From IMG/VR virus record IMGVR_UViG_3300030107_004877, positions 1-22,727 of that record: 22,727 nucleotides of DNA, one strand, 5' to 3'. The stretch's first letter is position 1. Each line of letters starts with the position of its first letter. Both the position numbers and the translations under genes were made by a program. The notes under the pieces were generated by a model. The model was not told the origin of the DNA and made no database searches. It worked only from the letters and a program-made list of their open reading frames with translations. Source of the stretch: a virus. Shown here one piece after another: positions 850-19,825 of this stretch.

Positions 850-2558
850 TTTTATTTGAAAATATATCTTGGAAGAATTTTTTATCTACTGGTAATACTC
901 CAACATGCGTCTGTCTTAATGAAAATGATACCACTTTAATTGTAGGTCAAAATGGAGCAGGTAAGTCAACTATTCTCGATGCTTTAACTTTTGTCCTTTA
1001 TGGAAAATCTTTTCGTAGAATTAATAAATCTCAACTTATTAATAGTTCTAATGAAAAGGATTGTTTAGTTGACATTGAATTTTCTATAAGTGGAGTTAAA
1101 TGGAAAATTATAAGAGGAATAAAACCTAATATTTTTAAAATTTATAGAAATGGTGAAGAATTAGATCAATCTCATTCTGCTCTAGATCAACAGAAATGGT
1201 TAGAGCAAAGTGTTCTTAAGATGAATTATAAATCTTTCACTCAGATTGTAATTTTGGGAAGTAGTACCTTCGTCCCATTCATGCAATTGCCACCAGGGAG
1301 TAGAAGAGAAGTGGTGGAAGACTTATTGGATATTAAAATATTTTCATCTATGAATGTTTTAATTAAAGAAAAGATAAGAGGAGTAAGAGAAGAAATTAGA
1401 ACTCTAGATTTGAAGAAAGAATCTCTTAAAGATAAAGTAGAGATGCAAAAGACTTTTATTGAAGAAGTAGAGAATAGAGGTAAGAAAAATATAAAAGAAA
1501 AGAATGATAAGATTAAAACTTTAGATATAGAAGTTGATACTTGTATGGAAAGAAATAATCTTACAGAAGTGGATATTTCGGACCTTATAGAGAAGCAAGA
1601 AAAGGTAACTGGAGCAGGAGAGAAGTTGGTAAAACTAAACAATTTAAAAGGAAAAATCTCTCAAAAAGTAACTACCATTACCAAAGAGCATAAGTTTTTC
1701 ACAGAAAATAAGGTTTGTCCTACATGTACACAGGATATTGAGGAGGATGTTAGAATAAATAAAGTTGCTGACGCTCAATCTAGAGCAAAGGAGTTGCAAT
1801 CTGGTTATAAAGAACTAGAAGAAGCAATTAAAACAGAGGAAGAGCGAGAGCGTCACTTTACAAATTTATCTAAGGAGATTACTACATTAACGCATGGCAT
1901 TTCTAAAAACAATACTCAGATCTCTGGATGTCAACGTCAAATCCGGGATTTGGAATCGGAAATTCAGAAACTTACCGACCAACTTGCAAATAGAAATACT
2001 GAGCATGAGAAGTTAGAATCTTTTAGAGATAGTCTTCAAGATACTTATCAGAAATTATCTGAAAAGAAAGAGACTATTTCTTACTATGATTTTGCTTATG
2101 GACTTCTGAAAGATGGAGGAGTCAAGGCAAGCATAGTTAAAAAATATTTACCTTTGATTAATCAGCAAGTTAACAAGTACTTGCAGATTATGGACTTTTA
2201 TATTAATTTTAAATTGGATGAGGAGTTTAATGAGACTGTAGAGTCTCCTATCCATGAAGATTTTTCATATGCTTCTTTTAGTGAAGGTGAAAAGTCTAGA
2301 ATTGATTTAGCACTAATTTTTGCTTGGCGAGAAGTTGCAAGATATAAAAATTCTGTTAATACTAACTTGATGTTATTTGATGAAGTTTTTGATTCTTCAC
2401 TTGATGGTTACGGAACAGATGAGTTTATGAAGATTATTAGATTTATTGTAAAGGATGCTAATATTTTTGTTATCTCCCATAAAGAATCTCTACATGATAA
2501 GTTTGCAAAGTTATTAAGATTTGAAAAAGTAAAAGGGTTTAGTAGGATGTTAAGTTAA
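846..2558 (+). CDS. gp46: Recombination endonuclease subunit gp46 (Rad50/SbcC-like ATPase)
   Basis: This 570-aa protein is close to the 560 aa of T4 gp46 and has every Rad50-type landmark. The Walker A motif GQNGAGKST is at residues 34-42. A long charged coiled coil (about 170-430) is split by a CPTC zinc hook at C291/C294. The ABC signature FSEGEKS is at 478-484, Walker B LMLFDE ends at D512-E513, and an H-loop VISHKES lies near the C-terminus. With gp47 it forms the SMC-like nuclease that processes DNA ends and helps degrade host DNA. The ATG overlaps the preceding stop as ATGA, and the stop overlaps the next start as TAATG. No missing residues are seen. Confidence 0.96.
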   Translation: MILFENISWKNFLSTGNTPTCVCLNENDTTLIVGQNGAGKSTILDALTFVLYGKSFRRINKSQLINSSNEKDCLVDIEFSISGVKWKIIRGIKPNIFKIYRNGEELDQSHSALDQQKWLEQSVLKMNYKSFTQIVILGSSTFVPFMQLPPGSRREVVEDLLDIKIFSSMNVLIKEKIRGVREEIRTLDLKKESLKDKVEMQKTFIEEVENRGKKNIKEKNDKIKTLDIEVDTCMERNNLTEVDISDLIEKQEKVTGAGEKLVKLNNLKGKISQKVTTITKEHKFFTENKVCPTCTQDIEEDVRINKVADAQSRAKELQSGYKELEEAIKTEEERERHFTNLSKEITTLTHGISKNNTQISGCQRQIRDLESEIQKLTDQLANRNTEHEKLESFRDSLQDTYQKLSEKKETISYYDFAYGLLKDGGVKASIVKKYLPLINQQVNKYLQIMDFYINFKLDEEFNETVESPIHEDFSYASFSEGEKSRIDLALIFAWREVARYKNSVNTNLMLFDEVFDSSLDGYGTDEFMKIIRFIVKDANIFVISHKESLHDKFAKLLRFEKVKGFSRMLS

Positions 2559-3190
2559 TGGCGGTATTTAAACATTTAGACACTGGTAAAAAATTTCTTT
2601 TTGTTCATATACCTAGAACAGGAGGAAGATTTATTGAATCTAATTTAGAATCAAGGGGATGGAGATGTGAACCTATAGAGTATTGTGGTATTCCTCACTA
2701 TAATCATTCTTTTATAGATGATTGTGAGATTACTCATTTTCCTAGAACTTTGTATGAGAAATATTGCAATGCAGAGGATATTCCTCATATTTCAATTATT
2801 AGAAATCCCATAGATAGATTTTTTTCATTATCCATTTATTTGACAGAGGCTTATGGTAGGAACATTCAGGAGGATGCTGAAGATGAAGATCAACTTAACG
2901 AGATGTTGAATGCTTTTCCTCTTCCAGAGTCTTTGGGGTGGTGGAGATCACAAGTAGATTATCTTTCAGATAAAACGAAGATTTGGAAATTTGAAGATGG
3001 ATTAGGAAGAAAGTTTTCTAAGTGGTTTAGTGGTATATTAGGAGTTAAATTTCAAACTGATGTTTTTATGTATTACCCTTCTAATAAAAGGGAGGGAGTT
3101 ACTCAACTTCGGAGAACTGATAAACTTATAGATAATATTAAAAAAATTTTTAGTAAAGATATAGAACAACTTTATCCTGAATTGATATGA
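2558..3190 (+). CDS. Sulfotransferase-like protein, copy 1
   Basis: This 210-aa protein has the two hallmarks of the PAPS-dependent sulfotransferase fold. A 5'-phosphosulfate loop FVHIPRTGGRF is at residues 15-25 (family pattern [IV]-P-K/R-T-G-G). A 3'-phosphate-binding segment SIIRNPIDRFFS is at 79-90, with R82 and S90 in the expected places. These enzymes move a sulfuryl group from PAPS to a hydroxyl of a sugar, lipid or protein; the acceptor cannot be told here. No signal peptide or membrane segment is visible, so it is probably cytoplasmic. It starts at ATG 2558, overlapping the gp46 stop by one base. A paralog with almost the same first 25 residues lies at 3339. The family call is good; the activity is inferred. 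Confidence 0.75.
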   Translation: MAVFKHLDTGKKFLFVHIPRTGGRFIESNLESRGWRCEPIEYCGIPHYNHSFIDDCEITHFPRTLYEKYCNAEDIPHISIIRNPIDRFFSLSIYLTEAYGRNIQEDAEDEDQLNEMLNAFPLPESLGWWRSQVDYLSDKTKIWKFEDGLGRKFSKWFSGILGVKFQTDVFMYYPSNKREGVTQLRRTDKLIDNIKKIFSKDIEQLYPELI

Positions 3191-3339
3191 TGGCAAGTGC
3201 CAAACAATACAAGGGTCAACCTCAAAAGGATTGGACTCAGAAGCAATGGTTACAACATGCGTGGGTTCAATCTCATAATCCTTGGATTGCAGAGGATGAT
3301 AGAGAGTATTGGAAAGATAAAATTAAGGAGTTGATGTAA
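3187..3339 (+). CDS. Small hypothetical protein between the sulfotransferase paralogs
   Basis: This 50-aa ORF opens with two consecutive ATG codons (3187 and 3190) overlapping the upstream stop, and its TAA shares a base with the next ATG at 3339. This perfect packing is the main evidence that it is a gene. The product is hydrophilic and tryptophan-rich (five Trp), with a KxWxxHAWxQSHNPW core. I recognise no family and no function. Its place between two paralogs suggests that the duplication carried, or later received, this small gene. Confidence 0.6.
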   Translation: MMASAKQYKGQPQKDWTQKQWLQHAWVQSHNPWIAEDDREYWKDKIKELM

Positions 3340-4055
3340 TGGCAGTATTTAAGCATGTAGACAGTGGAAAGAGATTTCTTTTTGTACACATTCCTAGGAC
3401 TGCTGGTAGATTTGTAGAACAGAATTTAGAAGCACAGGGGTGGGAATGGGAAAAGATTGATGAAAAAATAAAGTTAAGTCGTCGTCATGATGAATCAAAA
3501 GTAAGAATGTATGATAGTGTTGATGGAATAGAAATAGCTCATTTCCATAAAGAATACTATGAAAAGTATTTGGAGGTAAAAGATATTCCCCATGTTTCTA
3601 TTGTTAGAAATCCTATTGATAGATTTATTTCAGCATCAATTTGGTTGACAAGACTTTATGGTGACGAGATTCAAGAATCAATGGAAGATTCAGTAATGTT
3701 TAATTCAATGCTTTTTAATTTTCCTATGCCAGAATCTGTAAATTGGTATAGACCAATGGTAGACTTTATGTCAGATAAAACTGAGATATGGAAGTTTGAA
3801 GATGGTATGGGAAATAAGTTTTCCAATTGGATAAGTGGCATAGTGGGGGTAGACATCCATATGGATCAGTACTTAGAATATAGAACGGATCCTAGGATGA
3901 GAGAAGAAAGATCTGATAGTAGATTAAAAAAGACAGATGCTCTTATAGATAATCTTAGGGTTTTTTATAGGAAGGATTTAAACAAATTCTATCAAGACAA
4001 TGAAAGTACCAAATTGGATTCATCACTCCAAAAAGGAGAGAAAACGAAAACTTAG
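3339..4055 (+). CDS. Sulfotransferase-like protein, copy 2
   Basis: This 238-aa paralog of the 2558-3190 product has an N-terminus (MAVFKHVDSGKRFLFVHIPR) that matches copy 1 with a few conservative changes. The PAPS loop is HIPRTAG (residues 17-23), with Ala replacing the second Gly position of copy 1. The 3'-phosphate segment SIVRNPIDRFIS is at 87-98. The middle carries an insert of about 8-10 residues (around 43-60) relative to copy 1, and the C-terminal tail is longer and lysine-rich. The family suggests PAPS-dependent sulfation of an unknown acceptor. The start overlaps the preceding stop (TAATG). The pair arose by tandem duplication and has diverged considerably. Confidence 0.75.
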   Translation: MAVFKHVDSGKRFLFVHIPRTAGRFVEQNLEAQGWEWEKIDEKIKLSRRHDESKVRMYDSVDGIEIAHFHKEYYEKYLEVKDIPHVSIVRNPIDRFISASIWLTRLYGDEIQESMEDSVMFNSMLFNFPMPESVNWYRPMVDFMSDKTEIWKFEDGMGNKFSNWISGIVGVDIHMDQYLEYRTDPRMREERSDSRLKKTDALIDNLRVFYRKDLNKFYQDNESTKLDSSLQKGEKTKT

Positions 4056-4131
4056 ACCACAAGCTCTAAGACAAGCAAAAGTTAGGAGACAAGCACTTAA
4101 GAGGAAACTCAAAGGTGCTTTTTTTGTATAA
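4000..4131 (+). CDS. Possible small, very basic 43-aa protein
   Basis: This short ORF starts at ATG 4000 inside the end of the second sulfotransferase gene, in another frame, and ends at TAA 4129-4131. The product is rich in Lys and Arg (runs such as KKERKRKLR and KVRRQALKRKLKG) and resembles a small nucleic-acid-binding peptide. Its last third is the terminator hairpin at 4091-4125, so the amino-acid pattern may partly reflect hairpin sequence. No good Shine-Dalgarno is visible. It may be a true gene or a chance reading frame. Confidence 0.35.
   Translation: MKVPNWIHHSKKERKRKLRPQALRQAKVRRQALKRKLKGAFFV
4091..4125 (+). terminator. Rho-independent terminator after the sulfotransferase genes
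   Basis: The arm AAGCACTT (4091-4098) pairs with AGGTGCTT (4113-4120) with one G-T pair. An inner GAG/CTC stem is closed by a GAAA tetraloop, and a run of T follows to 4125. It ends the gp47-sulfotransferase transcript just before a late promoter. Confidence 0.75.
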
Positions 4132-4134
4132 ATA
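4127..4134 (+). promoter_or_regulatory. T4-type late promoter, exact TATAAATA
   Basis: The octamer TATAAATA is identical to the T4 late promoter -10 consensus used by the gp55/gp33-modified RNA polymerase. It sits directly after a terminator and about 23 bases before the ATG of the AsnRS-like gene, so transcription would begin around 4140 and leave a very short leader. It implies late expression of the AsnRS-like gene and probably of the following tRNA. Confidence 0.75.
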
Positions 4135-4156: not shown

Positions 4157-4954
4157 ATGACCTCTTTGATTGACCCAAAAAAGTATAGTGAGACTGTTGA
4201 CCTATTGAGGTCATTTTTTTTGTCTAAAAATTTCCTTGAAGTCCACACACAGAATCGTTTAAGCATCCTTGCTGCATGTGAAGATCCAGAAACAGTAGCA
4301 ACCTATGAATACAATGGTCAGATTTGGCCATTACCACAGACTGGACAAATGTGGTTGGAATATGAACTTCTTTCTAATCCTTCAGCAGAAGGATTTTTTT
4401 GTGTCTCCACTTCATATAGGGCAGAACCAAACCCTGTAGAAGGAAGACATGAAACTATCTTCCCTATGTTTGAGTTTGAAATGAAGGGAGGTGTAAAAGA
4501 ACTAGAAGAAATGGAAGTGGAGTTGTGTGAATGGTTAGGAATACCATTAGACACAATTAAGATTAAAAAGTATGATGACTGGGCAGACAATTATAAGGTA
4601 CGTGAGTTAGATCATGGACATGAATCTGCCATAGGTCGTGGGATGATTACTCATTTCCCTGAATGGACATCACCTTTTTGGAATATGGCAAGGAATAATG
4701 ATGGAACCAGTAAGAAGATTGATGTGATCCTAGGGGGTATGGAAACCATTGGTAGTGCAGAACGCAGTACTGATAAGGAACAGATGCGTAACACTTTCCA
4801 TACTATTTCAGATGGTGGATATGCTGAACTACTCTACAAATTATTCGGAAAGGAAAGAGTGGAGAAAGAACTTGAAGAGTTCCTCTCCTTTGATTTCTTC
4901 CCTAGAAGTGGTGGAGGGATAGGGATGCAACGTCTAATGACAGCCCTTTCATAG
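4157..4954 (+). CDS. Free-standing class II aminoacyl-tRNA synthetase core (AsnRS/AspRS type; asparagine synthetase-like)
   Basis: This 265-aa protein consists only of a class II synthetase catalytic domain of the Asp/Asn/Lys subgroup. A motif 1-like helix-strand (LRSFFLSKNFLEVHTQ) is at 17-32. Motif 2 has SYRAE at 86-90 and GRHETIFPMFEFE at 96-108. The segment GGMETIGSAERS (193-204) corresponds to the AsnRS/AspRS strand before motif 3, and motif 3 is GGGIGMQRL at 252-260 with R259. The N-terminal OB-fold anticodon-binding domain (about 100 aa) is absent. Family knowledge offers two readings: an AsnRS-derived ammonia-dependent asparagine synthetase, as known in archaea, or a tRNA-acting enzyme without anticodon recognition. 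ATG 4157 is preferred over TTG 4142. A tRNA with GUU anticodon starts 10 bases downstream. Codon use is somewhat less T-ending than in neighbouring genes. Confidence 0.8.
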   Translation: MTSLIDPKKYSETVDLLRSFFLSKNFLEVHTQNRLSILAACEDPETVATYEYNGQIWPLPQTGQMWLEYELLSNPSAEGFFCVSTSYRAEPNPVEGRHETIFPMFEFEMKGGVKELEEMEVELCEWLGIPLDTIKIKKYDDWADNYKVRELDHGHESAIGRGMITHFPEWTSPFWNMARNNDGTSKKIDVILGGMETIGSAERSTDKEQMRNTFHTISDGGYAELLYKLFGKERVEKELEEFLSFDFFPRSGGGIGMQRLMTALS

Positions 4955-4963
4955 GGCATTCAT

Positions 4964-5049
4964 TGTGAGGTGACGAAACTGGTAAACGTGTCAGTCTGTT
5001 TAACTGATGTTCCTGGCGGGACTTGTAGGTTCGACTCCTACCCTCACAG
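4964..5049 (+). tRNA. tRNA with GUU (Asn) anticodon and long variable arm
   Basis: An 86-base cloverleaf can be drawn. The acceptor TGTGAGG (4964-4970) pairs perfectly with CCTCACA (5042-5048), and the discriminator is G5049. The D arm is ACG/CGT with GG in the loop. The anticodon stem TCAGT/ACTGA (4991-4995, 5003-5007) closes the loop CTGTTTA, with anticodon GTT at 4998-5000. The variable arm GTTCC-TGGC-GGGAC (5009-5022) is five pairs long. The T arm GTAGG/CCTAC has loop TTCGACT, and CCA is not encoded. GUU, U1-A72 and G73 agree with bacterial tRNA-Asn, but tRNA-Asn normally has a short variable loop; the long arm belongs to Ser/Leu/Tyr tRNAs. Base 37 is T instead of the usual purine. The RNA call is strong; the amino acid is uncertain. 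Confidence 0.85.
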
Positions 5050-5801: not shown

Positions 5802-7913
5802 ATGGTCAACTACGAGATTAAATCCCAACTTGCTAAGTTGCTTGCAACTGAAGATTTGGTAGTTGAACATAAGAATATTTCTACTGCTCAATTTAATGTT
5901 GAGTCCAGGGTTCTTACTTTACCTTTATGGAAAAAGGCTACTAATATTGTTTATGATTTGTTAGTTGGTCATGAAGTTGGACATGCACTTTATACTCCCA
6001 ATAGATGGGGGTTTAAAATTCCACAACAATTTGTTAATGTTGTGGAGGATGCACGTATTGATAAATTAATGAAGCGTAAGTATCCAGGACTTTCAAAAAC
6101 TTTTTATTATGGTTATCAGGAGTTAAATGACAATGATTTCTTTGACATTGATGGTGAAGATCTTACTACTCTTAATCTTGCTGATAGGGGTAATTTATAT
6201 TTCAAGGTGGGTAACTTCGTTGATATATCTTTTTCAACTGTTGAAAAGAAGATTATCTCGTTAATAGAATCTTGTGAAACTTTTGATGATACTCTTGTCG
6301 CTGCAGCAAAACTTTATGAGTATTGTAAGGAAGAAGTAAAACAGAAGGAAAAGAGTGTAGAAGTTATATCTAATAAAGATATATCTCCTGATCCAGATCA
6401 AGGTAATGAAACTTTTGAAGAAGAATTTTTTGATGAAGGATATCAGGATGAGGAATTAAGTGAGGGAGAGATAGAAAAGATAATAGAAAATAAAGGTGCT
6501 TCTAATTCATCACCAGAACCTGAAGTCTCAACTGATACTGCTTTTCATGAAAGAACTCAAGAGTTAAATGATTTTAGACAACATAGGGAAAATGTATACC
6601 TAGAACTTCCTAAGCTTATTTTAGATAATGTAATTGCATCTAATTCTGAAATTCATAGTGTTTTAGAAGAAAGTTGGAAGACTCAATCTATTCCTATGGA
6701 GCAAGAAGATCCTTATACTGGAAGGAAGGTACTTTATAAAGCTGATTTTGATTATGTGGATGAAGAATATAATGAATTTAAGAATAATGCTAAGAAAGAA
6801 GTAAATTATTTGGTAAAGGAATTTGAATCTAAAAAAGCAGCAGATTCATATGCCCGTGCTGCTACTTCTAAAACTGGAATTTTAGATTGTTCTAAACTTC
6901 ATACTTATAAGTATAATGAAGATCTTTTTAGAAAAGTAACTACTCTAGCTGATGGTAAAAATCATGGATTAATATTCATGTTGGATTGGTCTGGATCAAT
7001 GCATTATACTATGCATGATACTATTAAACAGTTATTCAATCTTATATGGTTTTGTAATAAAGTTAATATTCCTTTTGAGGTTTATGCTTTTACTAATGGT
7101 TATGAGAACTGGAAAGAAGGGAACTCTCTCCCTAGAATGGAAAAAGAAGAATATAAGTTAGTTGTAAATGAAGATTTTACATTAATGAATTTTCTTACTA
7201 GTAAGGTAAGTAAAAATGTATTAGAAAAGCAAATGAAATCTTTATGGAGGGTAGTGTATGCTTTTAAAGAATATGGAGTACAATATACTCTTCCTGGGCA
7301 ATTTCATTTAGGTGGAACTCCTTTTAATGAAGCTTTAATTTCTTTACATCAAATCATTCCTCATTTTCAAAAGGAAACTAAAATACAAAAAGTCCAGTGT
7401 ATACTTTTAACAGATGGAGAAGCAAATGTTTTACCTTATCATAAATGGGTAAGCCGGGCTTGGGAAATGGAACCTTTTATGGGATGTCGTAATATTCATC
7501 CTCAATCTTCCTATATTCGTAATCGTAAAACTGGACATATCTATCAAGTTGATTATCAATTTTGGAAGTTTGGTGAAATTCTTTTAAAAGATTTAAAACA
7601 ATCTTTTCCTGATACTAATTTTATTGGAATTAGATTAGTTTCTAATAGGGATTTTGGATCTTTTATTCGTAGATATCAACCTCTAGATGATAAAGAAATG
7701 AGACAAGCTAGAAGAGAAAAGTCTTATAACATTACCACTGGGGGATATGATTCTTATTTTGTAATGAATGCTTCTTCTTTATCTTCTGATGATTCATTTG
7801 AGGTGGAAGAGGATGCATCTAAAGCAAGGATTAGAAATGCTTTTTCTAAAAGTCTTAAATCTAAAGCGTTAAATAAAAAAGTCTTAAGTAAGTTTATGGA
7901 TTTGGTATGTTGA
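5802..7913 (+). CDS. HExxH metallopeptidase-like and VWA (CobT-like) protein
   Basis: This 703-aa protein has two recognisable parts. Near the N-terminus a zincin helix GHEVGHAL gives H57-E58-x-x-H61, followed by NVVEDARIDKLMKRKYP (79-95), where E82 or D83 may be the third ligand, as in other VWA-linked peptidases of this type. An acidic, low-complexity linker spans about 180-250. A von Willebrand factor A domain begins at FMLDWSGSM with the MIDAS motif D395-x-S397-x-S399; later LLTDGEAN fits the VWA fold. A CobS-type AAA+ ATPase follows after 79 bases, matching the MoxR/VWA and CobS/CobT partnership. In cyanophages such a gene is often named peptidase or CobT-like. No cobaltochelatase CobN is seen, so a role in cobalamin is doubtful. 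Whether it cleaves peptides is unknown. Confidence 0.85.
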   Translation: MVNYEIKSQLAKLLATEDLVVEHKNISTAQFNVESRVLTLPLWKKATNIVYDLLVGHEVGHALYTPNRWGFKIPQQFVNVVEDARIDKLMKRKYPGLSKTFYYGYQELNDNDFFDIDGEDLTTLNLADRGNLYFKVGNFVDISFSTVEKKIISLIESCETFDDTLVAAAKLYEYCKEEVKQKEKSVEVISNKDISPDPDQGNETFEEEFFDEGYQDEELSEGEIEKIIENKGASNSSPEPEVSTDTAFHERTQELNDFRQHRENVYLELPKLILDNVIASNSEIHSVLEESWKTQSIPMEQEDPYTGRKVLYKADFDYVDEEYNEFKNNAKKEVNYLVKEFESKKAADSYARAATSKTGILDCSKLHTYKYNEDLFRKVTTLADGKNHGLIFMLDWSGSMHYTMHDTIKQLFNLIWFCNKVNIPFEVYAFTNGYENWKEGNSLPRMEKEEYKLVVNEDFTLMNFLTSKVSKNVLEKQMKSLWRVVYAFKEYGVQYTLPGQFHLGGTPFNEALISLHQIIPHFQKETKIQKVQCILLTDGEANVLPYHKWVSRAWEMEPFMGCRNIHPQSSYIRNRKTGHIYQVDYQFWKFGEILLKDLKQSFPDTNFIGIRLVSNRDFGSFIRRYQPLDDKEMRQARREKSYNITTGGYDSYFVMNASSLSSDDSFEVEEDASKARIRNAFSKSLKSKALNKKVLSKFMDLVC

Positions 7914-17434: not shown

Positions 17435-19825
17435 TTGAAAAATAATCTTTATAATGGTATCAGTGAAAGACTTTTCTTTACTTTAGGTAAACGCCCAGAA
17501 ATTGCTACGACCCATGATTTTTATATGGCATTGAGTTATGCTGTGAGAGATCAGATGATGACCTATTGGTTAGATAGTAAAAAAGAAGTTGATAAGGAAA
17601 TTGCTTATCTTTCAGCAGAATTTTTAATAGGACCTCAACTTAATAATAATTTAGTTAATTTGGGTATCAGGGAAGAAGCGCAAGAAGCATTAAAGGAATA
17701 TGGATATACTTTAGATCAGATTTTAGATGTAGCAGAGGAACCTGGACTTGGTAATGGTGGTCTAGGACGTCTGGCTGCTTGTTATATGGAGTCTCTAGCA
17801 AGTCTTAAAGTACCTGCTACTGGATATGGTATAAGATATAAGTACGGCATCTTTAAGCAGTTAATTAAGGACAATCAGCAGATTGAGATTACTGATAATT
17901 GGCTACATGGAGAATGGCCATGGGAATTATGTCAACCTGATGAGTCTGTATTTGTAGGATTTGGTGGTAGAGTTGAAAATTATGTATCAGATAGAGGTAA
18001 TTATAGAGTAAGGTGGGTTCCTGAGGAGCAAGTGGTTGCTGTTCCTTATGATGTATTGCAATTAGGATATAGAGTTAATAGTTGTAATAGGTTGAGATTG
18101 TGGAGAGCAGATGCCACAGAAACCTTTGACTTCTATGCATTTAATATTGGTGATTACCTTGGTTCAGTAGAACAAAGTGTTTCATCTGAGACTATTTCTA
18201 AGGTATTGTATCCCAATGATGGTACAGATCAAGGAAAGACTTTAAGGTTGAAGCAGCAGTATTTCTTTGTAAGTGCTTCCCTTCAGGATATGATGAATAG
18301 TTTGGATAAGAGGGGATATGATATAGAAGATTTTCCCCATCATTGGCAAGTGCAATTAAATGATACTCATCCATCTATTGCAGTAGCAGAATTGATGAGA
18401 CTTCTTGTGGATGAAAGGCATATAGAGTGGGAAGATGCATGGGAGATAACCACTAAGTCTATTGCTTATACTAATCATACTCTTCTACCAGAGGCATTGG
18501 AGAAGTGGGATCTCAAACTCTTTAAGACTTTACTTCCTCGTCACATGGAGATTATCTATGAGATTAATCGTAGATTCCTTCAAGTAGTAAGACTTAATTA
18601 TCCTGGAGATGATTCCATTTTAGAAAAGTTATCCATTATTGATGAGAATGGTGGTAAGTCTGTGCGTATGGCACACCTTGCAACTGTAGGTTCTCATCAT
18701 GTAAATGGTGTTGCTGCATTACATTCTGAGTTAATTAAGACTCAATTGATGCCAGAGTTTTATGATTTATGGCCACATAAGTTTACTAATGTGACTAATG
18801 GTGTCACCCCAAGAAGATGGGTAGCATCTGCCAATCCTGCATTAGCAGAAGTTCTTGATGAATATGTTGGTATGGATTGGATTACTCATATGGATTCTCT
18901 GAGGAAATTAGAAAGTAGGAGAATGGAACCAGAACTTCTAGAAAAAATTGCAAGTACTAAAATTATTGGAAAGCATCATCTTGCTACTTATATTTTTGAT
19001 ACTTTGGGGGTATCAGTAGATCCTTCTAGTATGTTCGATGTACAGGTTAAGAGAATTCATGAGTATAAGAGACAACATTTACTTGCTCTTTGGGTTATAG
19101 CACAATATCTTCGTATAAAGAATGGACATGATATAGTTCCGAGGACTGTAATCTTTGGTGGCAAAGCAGCTCCTGGATATTATATGGCTAAGATGATAGT
19201 TCAATTTATTTGTCATATTGCAGATGTGGTTAATAATGATCCTGATATGGATGGTAAGTTACGTGTAATATTCTTACCAAACTATAGTGTCAAGTTAGGT
19301 GAACTTGTCTATCCTGCTGCTGATCTTTCTGAACAGATATCAACTGCTGGTAAAGAAGCATCTGGTACAGGGAACATGAAGTTTCAAATGAATGGTGCTG
19401 TTACTATAGGAACTCTTGATGGTGCTAATGTTGAGATACGTGATTTAGTGGGTGAGGAGAATTTCTTCTTGTTTGGTAATGATGAAACTGGTATAGCAAA
19501 ACTATGGAAAGATGGTTATAATCCTCAACATCACATATCTGAGGAACTGTGGGAAGTAATTCACCTTGTTAGGGGTGGTCACTTTAGTCATGGTGATCGT
19601 AATATGTTTGAACCTTTAATAAGTAATCTTTTGAATCATGATCCTTTCTGTGTATTGGCAGATTTTTCTGATTACTTAGATGCTCAGGATAGGGTAAGTA
19701 GTGCATGGAAAGATAGAGATAGTTGGAATAGAATGTCTCTTTTAAATATTGCTAGGTCTGGGTTCTTCTCTTCAGATAGATCTATTAGGGATTACTGTAA
19801 TAAAATATGGGGTATTCCCCACTGA
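17435..19825 (+). CDS. glgP: Glycogen/alpha-glucan phosphorylase
   Basis: This 796-aa protein spans the whole glycogen phosphorylase family (about 800-840 aa). Family blocks in order are YLSAEFLIGPQLNNNL, EPGLGNGGLGRLAACYMES, GYGIRYKYGIFKQ, WEYTNHT-like IAYTNHTLLPEALEKW, the FDVQVKRIHEYKRQ phosphate/PLP region, and EASGTGNMKFQMNGAVTIGT with the PLP-binding lysine at K649, then LDGANVEI. It splits alpha-1,4-glucans with phosphate to give glucose-1-phosphate. The start is TTG 17435, two bases after regA; no upstream ATG fits and the next in-frame Met is inside the conserved region. No frameshift is seen, so the gene looks functional. It is not a T4 core gene, and codon use matches its AT-rich neighbours, so it is well ameliorated. 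It probably mobilises host glycogen during infection. Confidence 0.96.
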   Translation: MKNNLYNGISERLFFTLGKRPEIATTHDFYMALSYAVRDQMMTYWLDSKKEVDKEIAYLSAEFLIGPQLNNNLVNLGIREEAQEALKEYGYTLDQILDVAEEPGLGNGGLGRLAACYMESLASLKVPATGYGIRYKYGIFKQLIKDNQQIEITDNWLHGEWPWELCQPDESVFVGFGGRVENYVSDRGNYRVRWVPEEQVVAVPYDVLQLGYRVNSCNRLRLWRADATETFDFYAFNIGDYLGSVEQSVSSETISKVLYPNDGTDQGKTLRLKQQYFFVSASLQDMMNSLDKRGYDIEDFPHHWQVQLNDTHPSIAVAELMRLLVDERHIEWEDAWEITTKSIAYTNHTLLPEALEKWDLKLFKTLLPRHMEIIYEINRRFLQVVRLNYPGDDSILEKLSIIDENGGKSVRMAHLATVGSHHVNGVAALHSELIKTQLMPEFYDLWPHKFTNVTNGVTPRRWVASANPALAEVLDEYVGMDWITHMDSLRKLESRRMEPELLEKIASTKIIGKHHLATYIFDTLGVSVDPSSMFDVQVKRIHEYKRQHLLALWVIAQYLRIKNGHDIVPRTVIFGGKAAPGYYMAKMIVQFICHIADVVNNDPDMDGKLRVIFLPNYSVKLGELVYPAADLSEQISTAGKEASGTGNMKFQMNGAVTIGTLDGANVEIRDLVGEENFFLFGNDETGIAKLWKDGYNPQHHISEELWEVIHLVRGGHFSHGDRNMFEPLISNLLNHDPFCVLADFSDYLDAQDRVSSAWKDRDSWNRMSLLNIARSGFFSSDRSIRDYCNKIWGIPH

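Follow-up and report, generated by a model that had tools for sequence, protein, structure and literature searches.

AsnRS is a class IIb synthetase in which an OB-fold accompanies the catalytic core. Archaeal asparagine synthetase A (AsnA, AS-AR) consists of the AsnRS core alone, with about 270–290 aa, and its function is metabolic and not translational. The CarAB-PyrB-PyrC route delivers dihydroorotate to PyrD, PyrE and PyrF. Bacterial tRNA-Asn has a U1-A72 pair, G73 and the anticodon GUU; U1-A72 is the determinant for GatCAB, and the anticodon and G73 confer Asn identity (PMC4206432; PMC9976931). Large phages are also known to carry tRNA and synthetase genes.

The window, i.e., the whole stretch of viral DNA that we analysed (22,727 nt, IMG/VR record IMGVR_UViG_3300030107_004877), contains a gene, here called X, that partly resembles each of these systems. 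X shares with AsnRS the core fold (1x54), the motif 2 and 3 residues and the TGQMWLE and ETIGSAER type motifs, but it has no OB-fold, the X family obtains only 17–33 bits with the NCBIfam asnS model (cut-off 342.6), and it coexists with a real AsnRS and sits in pyrimidine clusters. It has the layout of archaeal asparagine synthetase A and, as proposed below, also a metabolic role, but it stays far under the NCBIfam cut-offs for that enzyme, has another genomic context and does not have the Asp-binding lysine motif of AspRS. Compared with the CarAB-PyrB-PyrC route, one AsnRS-like protein would supply the same predicted product to PyrD-PyrE-PyrF, and the amide nitrogen of asparagine would become N3. 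The tRNAs associated with X have U1-A72, G73 and GUU in common with bacterial tRNA-Asn, but differ from it in a Leu-like body, a usually long variable arm, U37, a variable position 33 and sometimes GUC. Like the sets of large phages, the locus combines a phage-borne synthetase-like gene with a tRNA gene; unlike them, it is one fixed pair that occurs with pyrimidine genes, with 7–11 nt between gene and tRNA in the cyanophage clade. On balance, we favor the explanation that X derives from AsnRS and acts in de novo pyrimidine synthesis, where it yields dihydroorotate in place of CarAB, PyrB and PyrC, and that in marine T4-like phages it is coupled to a dedicated Asx-tRNA. No description of this gene-tRNA pair, of AsnRS-like pyrimidine routes or of Midichloria pyrimidine genes came up in a search of open-access text.

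Gene X Encodes an AsnRS-Type Catalytic Core

The product of gene X (4157..4954, + strand) is 265 aa long, an AsnRS-type class IIb catalytic core that lacks an anticodon domain. PF00152 is the sole Pfam match of this ORF (55.2 bits, cut-off 25) and the alignment with AsnRS begins past the N-terminal OB-fold, which confirms the free-standing core of the preliminary description. The class II motifs 2 (SYRAE...GRH...FEFE) and 3 (GGGIGMQR) that had been recognized there are present as well; across 21 diverse homologs their key residues, among them the arginines R88, R203 and R259, do not vary. The ATP-binding residues, whose loss had been considered, are intact. A structure prediction had been suggested as a check, and the AlphaFold2 model of X (pLDDT 91) had AsnRS with bound Asn-AMP as its top PDB match (1x54, E=5.8e-18), followed by other class IIb enzymes; archaeal AsnA (3rex; TMq 0.72, TMt 0.66) ranked below AsnRS for the predicted fold. 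AsnRS again came first in a profile search (2xgt, E=8e-12). Aligned with AsnRS, X keeps the motif 2 and 3 arginines and has TGQMWLE (SGQL..E in AsnRS) and the AsnRS-type ETIGSAER motif, and the lysine of the AspRS motif SPQLFKQ is replaced, so that the motif is of the Asn type rather than the AspRS type.

X did not reach the equivalog models for AsnRS (TIGR00457; 17.3 bits, cut-off 342.6), for asparagine synthetase A (PRK06462/AS-AR; 21.3 bits, cut-off 389) or for EpmA/GenX of EF-P lysylation (15.0 vs 286.9 bits and 19.9 vs 264 bits). It matches phrog_29758 (E=2.5e-162), a family without annotated function, and corresponds to T4-GC 194, which is listed as ‘tRNA ligase’ by Sullivan et al. (2010; PMC3037559). 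The homologs in the Prochlorococcus phages P-SSM7, P-SSM2 and P-SSM5 are 79–81% identical to X and are annotated in the same way.

A tRNA Gene Is Paired With X in Phages

A tRNA gene (4964..5049, + strand) follows the stop codon of X after a spacer of 9 nt, and not of 10 bases as first described. ARAGORN and Rfam RF00005 (51.3 bits) both call it at this position with the anticodon GUU, and thus the unusual GUU tRNA that had been reported after the gene is genuine. It combines Asn identity (U1-A72, G73, GUU) with a Leu-like D arm and a 17-nt variable region, and CCA is not encoded. The anticodon loop CUGUUUA is located at 4996..5002 (+ strand), with GUU at 4998–5000 and U37 at 5001. The long variable region (5008..5024, + strand) contains the stem GUUCC/GGGAC, which is paired in 95% of cells in an alignment of 16 diverse tRNAs.

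The tRNA follows X in 84/84 loci (the window, three isolates and 80 IMG/VR loci, among the matches listed) at a distance of 7–11 nt from the X stop codon, with partial tRNAs in loci at contig ends. A converse scan for the tRNA pattern gave 70 copies preceded by gene X among the matches listed; eight real tRNAs without X all lay less than 125 nt from a contig end, and the other matches had no tRNA structure. These two results, for the matches listed, rule out chance adjacency, and the co-occurrence across marine phages that had been proposed for examination supports a dedicated pair among near relatives. When all X loci were pooled, a tRNA of this kind was encoded within 500 nt downstream in 253/376 (among the matches listed). 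The opposite expectation, that the gene would occur mostly without the tRNA, holds for the cellular homologs but fails for those of phages. A few phage X loci have no tRNA (e.g., L363, L365, L417, L452 and L466), and the X homologs of two huge phages (735 and 484 kb) are without a dedicated tRNA; a scan seeded with the homolog of the 484-kb phage found no relatives.

What the tRNA Conserves and What Drifts

In the cyanophage clade, all 51 unique tRNAs have U1-A72, G73, GUU and U37, and the variable arm measures 14–29 nt. In the alignment of 16 diverse tRNAs 99% of cells were paired and 20/25 pairs had double changes, which indicates an RNA under strong structural selection. Two further viral scans gave distant relatives, the majority of them with a tRNA, and this wider set contained 82 unique tRNAs (among the matches listed). 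In this set U1-A72 was retained in 81/81 and G73 in 80/80 scorable tRNAs, CCA was encoded in 79/82, and all four bases occurred at position 33 as well as at position 37. The anticodon was GUU with two exceptions (L348, 4859–4954; L359, 3868–3963), which have the Asp anticodon GUC and yet retain U1-A72 and G73. The length of these tRNAs ranged from 74 to 108 nt, which implies that the long arm is dispensable. The long variable arm noted in the preliminary description is therefore real in the window tRNA but inconstant, as the tRNAs of other relatives are class I-sized (74–76 nt). The idea that the enzyme reads this arm is not supported, since the arm varies in length within the cyanophage clade and is lost in relatives that retain the gene; recognition of the variable arm as a general rule was rejected on these grounds. 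Nearly all X-associated phage tRNAs outside the cyanophage clade encode CCA and those of the clade do not, a difference that probably reflects different hosts.

Decoding constrains positions 33 and 37 of a tRNA, and position 37 of tRNA-Asn is normally A. The U33 and A37 of this decoding loop are not preserved in X-associated tRNAs, as position 37 is U in 51/51 cyanophage tRNAs and both positions vary in the wider set. Judged by its sequence, the tRNA looks like one that keeps what Asn charging and amidation need and not what decoding needs. Since the identity set is kept but the variable arm and loop positions 33 and 37 change, we read it as a dedicated, largely non-decoding Asn-tRNA. The GUUU loop, however, is invariant in the cyanophage clade (51/51), which suggests some use of the loop and counts against a non-decoding tRNA.

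Cellular Homologs and Pyrimidine Genes

Relatives of X were found in at least 125 cellular contig loci, of which the best 80 are 50–69% identical, have the same active site and belong to Patescibacteria, Bacteroidota, Alphaproteobacteria, Pasteurella, Dependentiae, DPANN archaea and others. Phage and cellular X have about 80 conserved residues in common and few clade-specific changes. In a quick tree with many weak forks, the phage X group (91 rows) is sister to the clade of X-pyrF-pyrE cassettes, and the distribution of the tRNA over its branches agrees with few gains and scattered losses. Most cellular X loci have no such tRNA nearby, and a covariance search for a hidden copy in 14 whole cellular genomes and the two huge phages gave a tRNA-Leu as best match each time. 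A full AsnRS scored over cut-off in 16/23 X genomes, and this separate enzyme rules out that X is the cell’s own AsnRS in most of them.

pyrD, pyrE or pyrF adjoin X in 25/80 cellular loci (best 80 of at least 125), and the pyr-clustered loci span Bacteroidota, Alphaproteobacteria, Pasteurella, Dependentiae, Myxococcota and CPR. The four-gene cassette X-pyrF-pyrE-pyrD', of a Rickettsiales type, is present in Bandiella and Midichloriaceae (L237, L240, L249) and in a Rhodospirillaceae MAG (L207). Pasteurella atlantica encodes pyrD in addition to X-pyrF-pyrE, and Aureispira encodes pyrEF, pyrD and X. The pyrE and pyrD' genes of the four-gene cassettes (L237, 1–3000; L240; L249; L207) are short and divergent, and pyrD' is a weak PF01180 match.

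Among annotated isolates (461 cyanophage-named records with a T4-like clamp loader were compared), PyrE (at least 48% identity) is limited to P-SSM2, P-SSM5 and P-SSM7, and X to these three as well; PyrE is also encoded on some single-cell marine virus fragments. One phage has the gene order X-tRNA-pyrE-purM (L047), pyrE and pyrF are located near X in L425–L429 and L437, and pyrD' was found in the phage-like L204 and L212 (also L387 and L390). Overall, pyr genes lie near viral X in 22/299 loci and in 0/46 viral loci without X (among the matches listed), a difference that is weak by itself. A 595-kb phage (LR756511.1) encodes PyrE and PyrD' homologs at 212059–212520 and 248256–248942, and X was not detected in it.

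In X-bearing genomes, many of which are incomplete MAGs, CarB was over cut-off in 2/19, PyrC (TIGR00857) in 2/19 and PyrB in 2/19, with no PyrB match in 15/19, as opposed to CarB and PyrB over cut-off in 14/14 control genomes. PyrD was present in 18/21 X genomes. With the E. coli-type PyrC model, no protein of 27 genomes (21 X-bearing) reached the cut-off. Two MAGs still have enzymes of the standard route, one PyrB and PyrC (G006) and one all three (G012). The sub-threshold PyrB- and PyrC-like matches that were checked are ornithine carbamoyltransferases (737 and 373–450 bits) and allantoinases (529–530 bits); accordingly, the residual carbamoyltransferase of P. atlantica was rejected as PyrB and the residual PyrC-like protein of Aureispira as PyrC. 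In 199 Saprospiraceae, all four X genomes fall within the 16 without a PyrB match (hypergeometric p ~3e-5), with the limitation that X is identical in two of them; one of the four genomes is a single 7.3-Mb contig. Both features expected of a pyrimidine enzyme, pyr clustering in the cellular loci and, in the genome profile searches, missing steps that it would replace, were thus found for X.

Proposed Reaction and Alternative Explanations

Where CarAB, PyrB and PyrC are absent and X alone among the cassette genes is unassigned, X is the natural candidate for dihydroorotate synthesis. A pyrimidine role of X is likely. Asn (C4H8N2O3) plus CO2 minus H2O equals dihydroorotic acid (C5H6N2O4) exactly, which means that an active site forming Asn-AMP could reach dihydroorotate via an N-carboxyanhydride. 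In the reaction that we infer as the likely one, X would convert L-asparagine, HCO3- and ATP in one step to dihydroorotate, AMP and PPi. Like AsnRS, X would activate asparagine as Asn-AMP; an N-carboxyanhydride would be closed by CO2, and attack of the side-chain amide on the carbamate carbon of this intermediate would give the six-membered ring. PyrD, PyrE and PyrF would carry dihydroorotate on to UMP. An ATP-dependent dihydroorotase acting on carbamoyl-aspartate seems unlikely because PyrB is missing.

In phages, host AspRS with GatCAB, or AsnRS, would load the phage tRNA with asparagine, and X would take the asparagine from this dedicated tRNA so that the translation pool is not taxed. The use of the tRNA as a dedicated Asx-tRNA that spares translation is proposed only tentatively and is less certain than the pyrimidine role. 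The same reserve applies to the complete tRNA-dependent pathway, in which Asn on a non-decoding phage tRNA and CO2 would possibly be converted to dihydroorotate by X in place of CarAB, PyrB and PyrC. Dependence on a tRNA is not general, since cellular X and the huge-phage homologs have no dedicated one. This would also agree with a pyrimidine enzyme that uses free asparagine while the tRNA stays outside the reaction and replenishes the Asn-tRNA that would run low as X uses asparagine, resists a host anticodon nuclease or aids mRNA 3' processing; the altered anticodon loop would fit escape from such a nuclease. However, the coupling of gene and tRNA is near-absolute over hundreds of phages, and conservation of U1-A72 and G73 with drift of U33 and position 37 in the wider set is the reverse of what a decoding tRNA needs. 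We consider the free-asparagine explanation rather unlikely.

The preliminary description envisaged a phage translation module, and the predicted AsnRS fold and pocket of X, the GUU anticodon and the conserved adjacency could indeed point to an orthogonal pair, in which X, reading the acceptor end, would load Asn onto a tRNA that serves AAU/AAC codons. This seems improbable, because the same enzyme with the same conserved residues is found in tRNA-less cells, beside a full AsnRS and in pyr clusters of genomes without CarB, PyrB and PyrC, because the phage-specific residue changes are few, and because the tRNAs have U37, C37 or G37, C33, A33 or G33 and even GUC. It had also been suggested that X is an asparagine synthetase that uses ammonia, like archaeal AsnA (AS-AR), which has the same domain layout and a similar fold (3rex, see above). 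This is nevertheless very improbable: cellular X scores 21–27 bits with the AsnA models (cut-offs 322–389), TGQMWLE replaces the lysine-containing SPQLFKQ of AspRS as in AsnRS, and the source of dihydroorotate would stay unexplained in genomes without CarB, PyrB and PyrC.

If X is a dihydroorotate-forming enzyme, it would explain UMP synthesis in organisms that have PyrD, PyrE and PyrF but no carbamoyl-phosphate synthetase, aspartate carbamoyltransferase and dihydroorotase, and it would give phages an entry step to pyrimidines that is not subject to the feedback by which the host controls CarAB and PyrB. Without a dedicated tRNA, the enzyme would amount to another, so far unrecognised way of making UMP in Patescibacteria, Bacteroidota, Rickettsiales-type symbionts and Pasteurella. 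If the tRNA participates, nucleotide synthesis would count among the few biosyntheses that depend on a tRNA. The pair of X and tRNA in addition represents a natural tRNA module selected for charging and apparently not for decoding.

Promoter Element and Other Observations

Upstream of X and the tRNA, the window contains a single exact copy of the T4-type late promoter element TATAAATA (4127..4134, + strand), which by comparison with the T4 consensus may function as a late promoter. The exact element described earlier is thus present, but it does not extend to most relatives: TATAAATA was found within 120 nt of gene X in just 25/80.

The tRNA-Asn annotation of P-SSM2 (L002, NC_006883.2) at 164094–164179 is misplaced, and the true site is at about 162083–162168, directly after the ‘tRNA ligase’ gene. 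In L209 (~5866–5888) the tRNA after X is cut to acceptor stem, discriminator and CCA (TCCGGGG-TC-CCCCGGA-GCCA). The closely related L326 keeps the full tRNA, and the form in L209 could be a deletion, a misassembly or a real microhelix. The window further encodes a 796-aa ORF (17435–19825) similar to glycogen/alpha-glucan phosphorylase, which is unusual in a T4-like phage. Just 5' of the X-tRNA unit lies a tandem pair of paralogous ORFs (2558–3190 and 3339–4055) with a sulfotransferase-like start (FLFVHIPRT.GRF).
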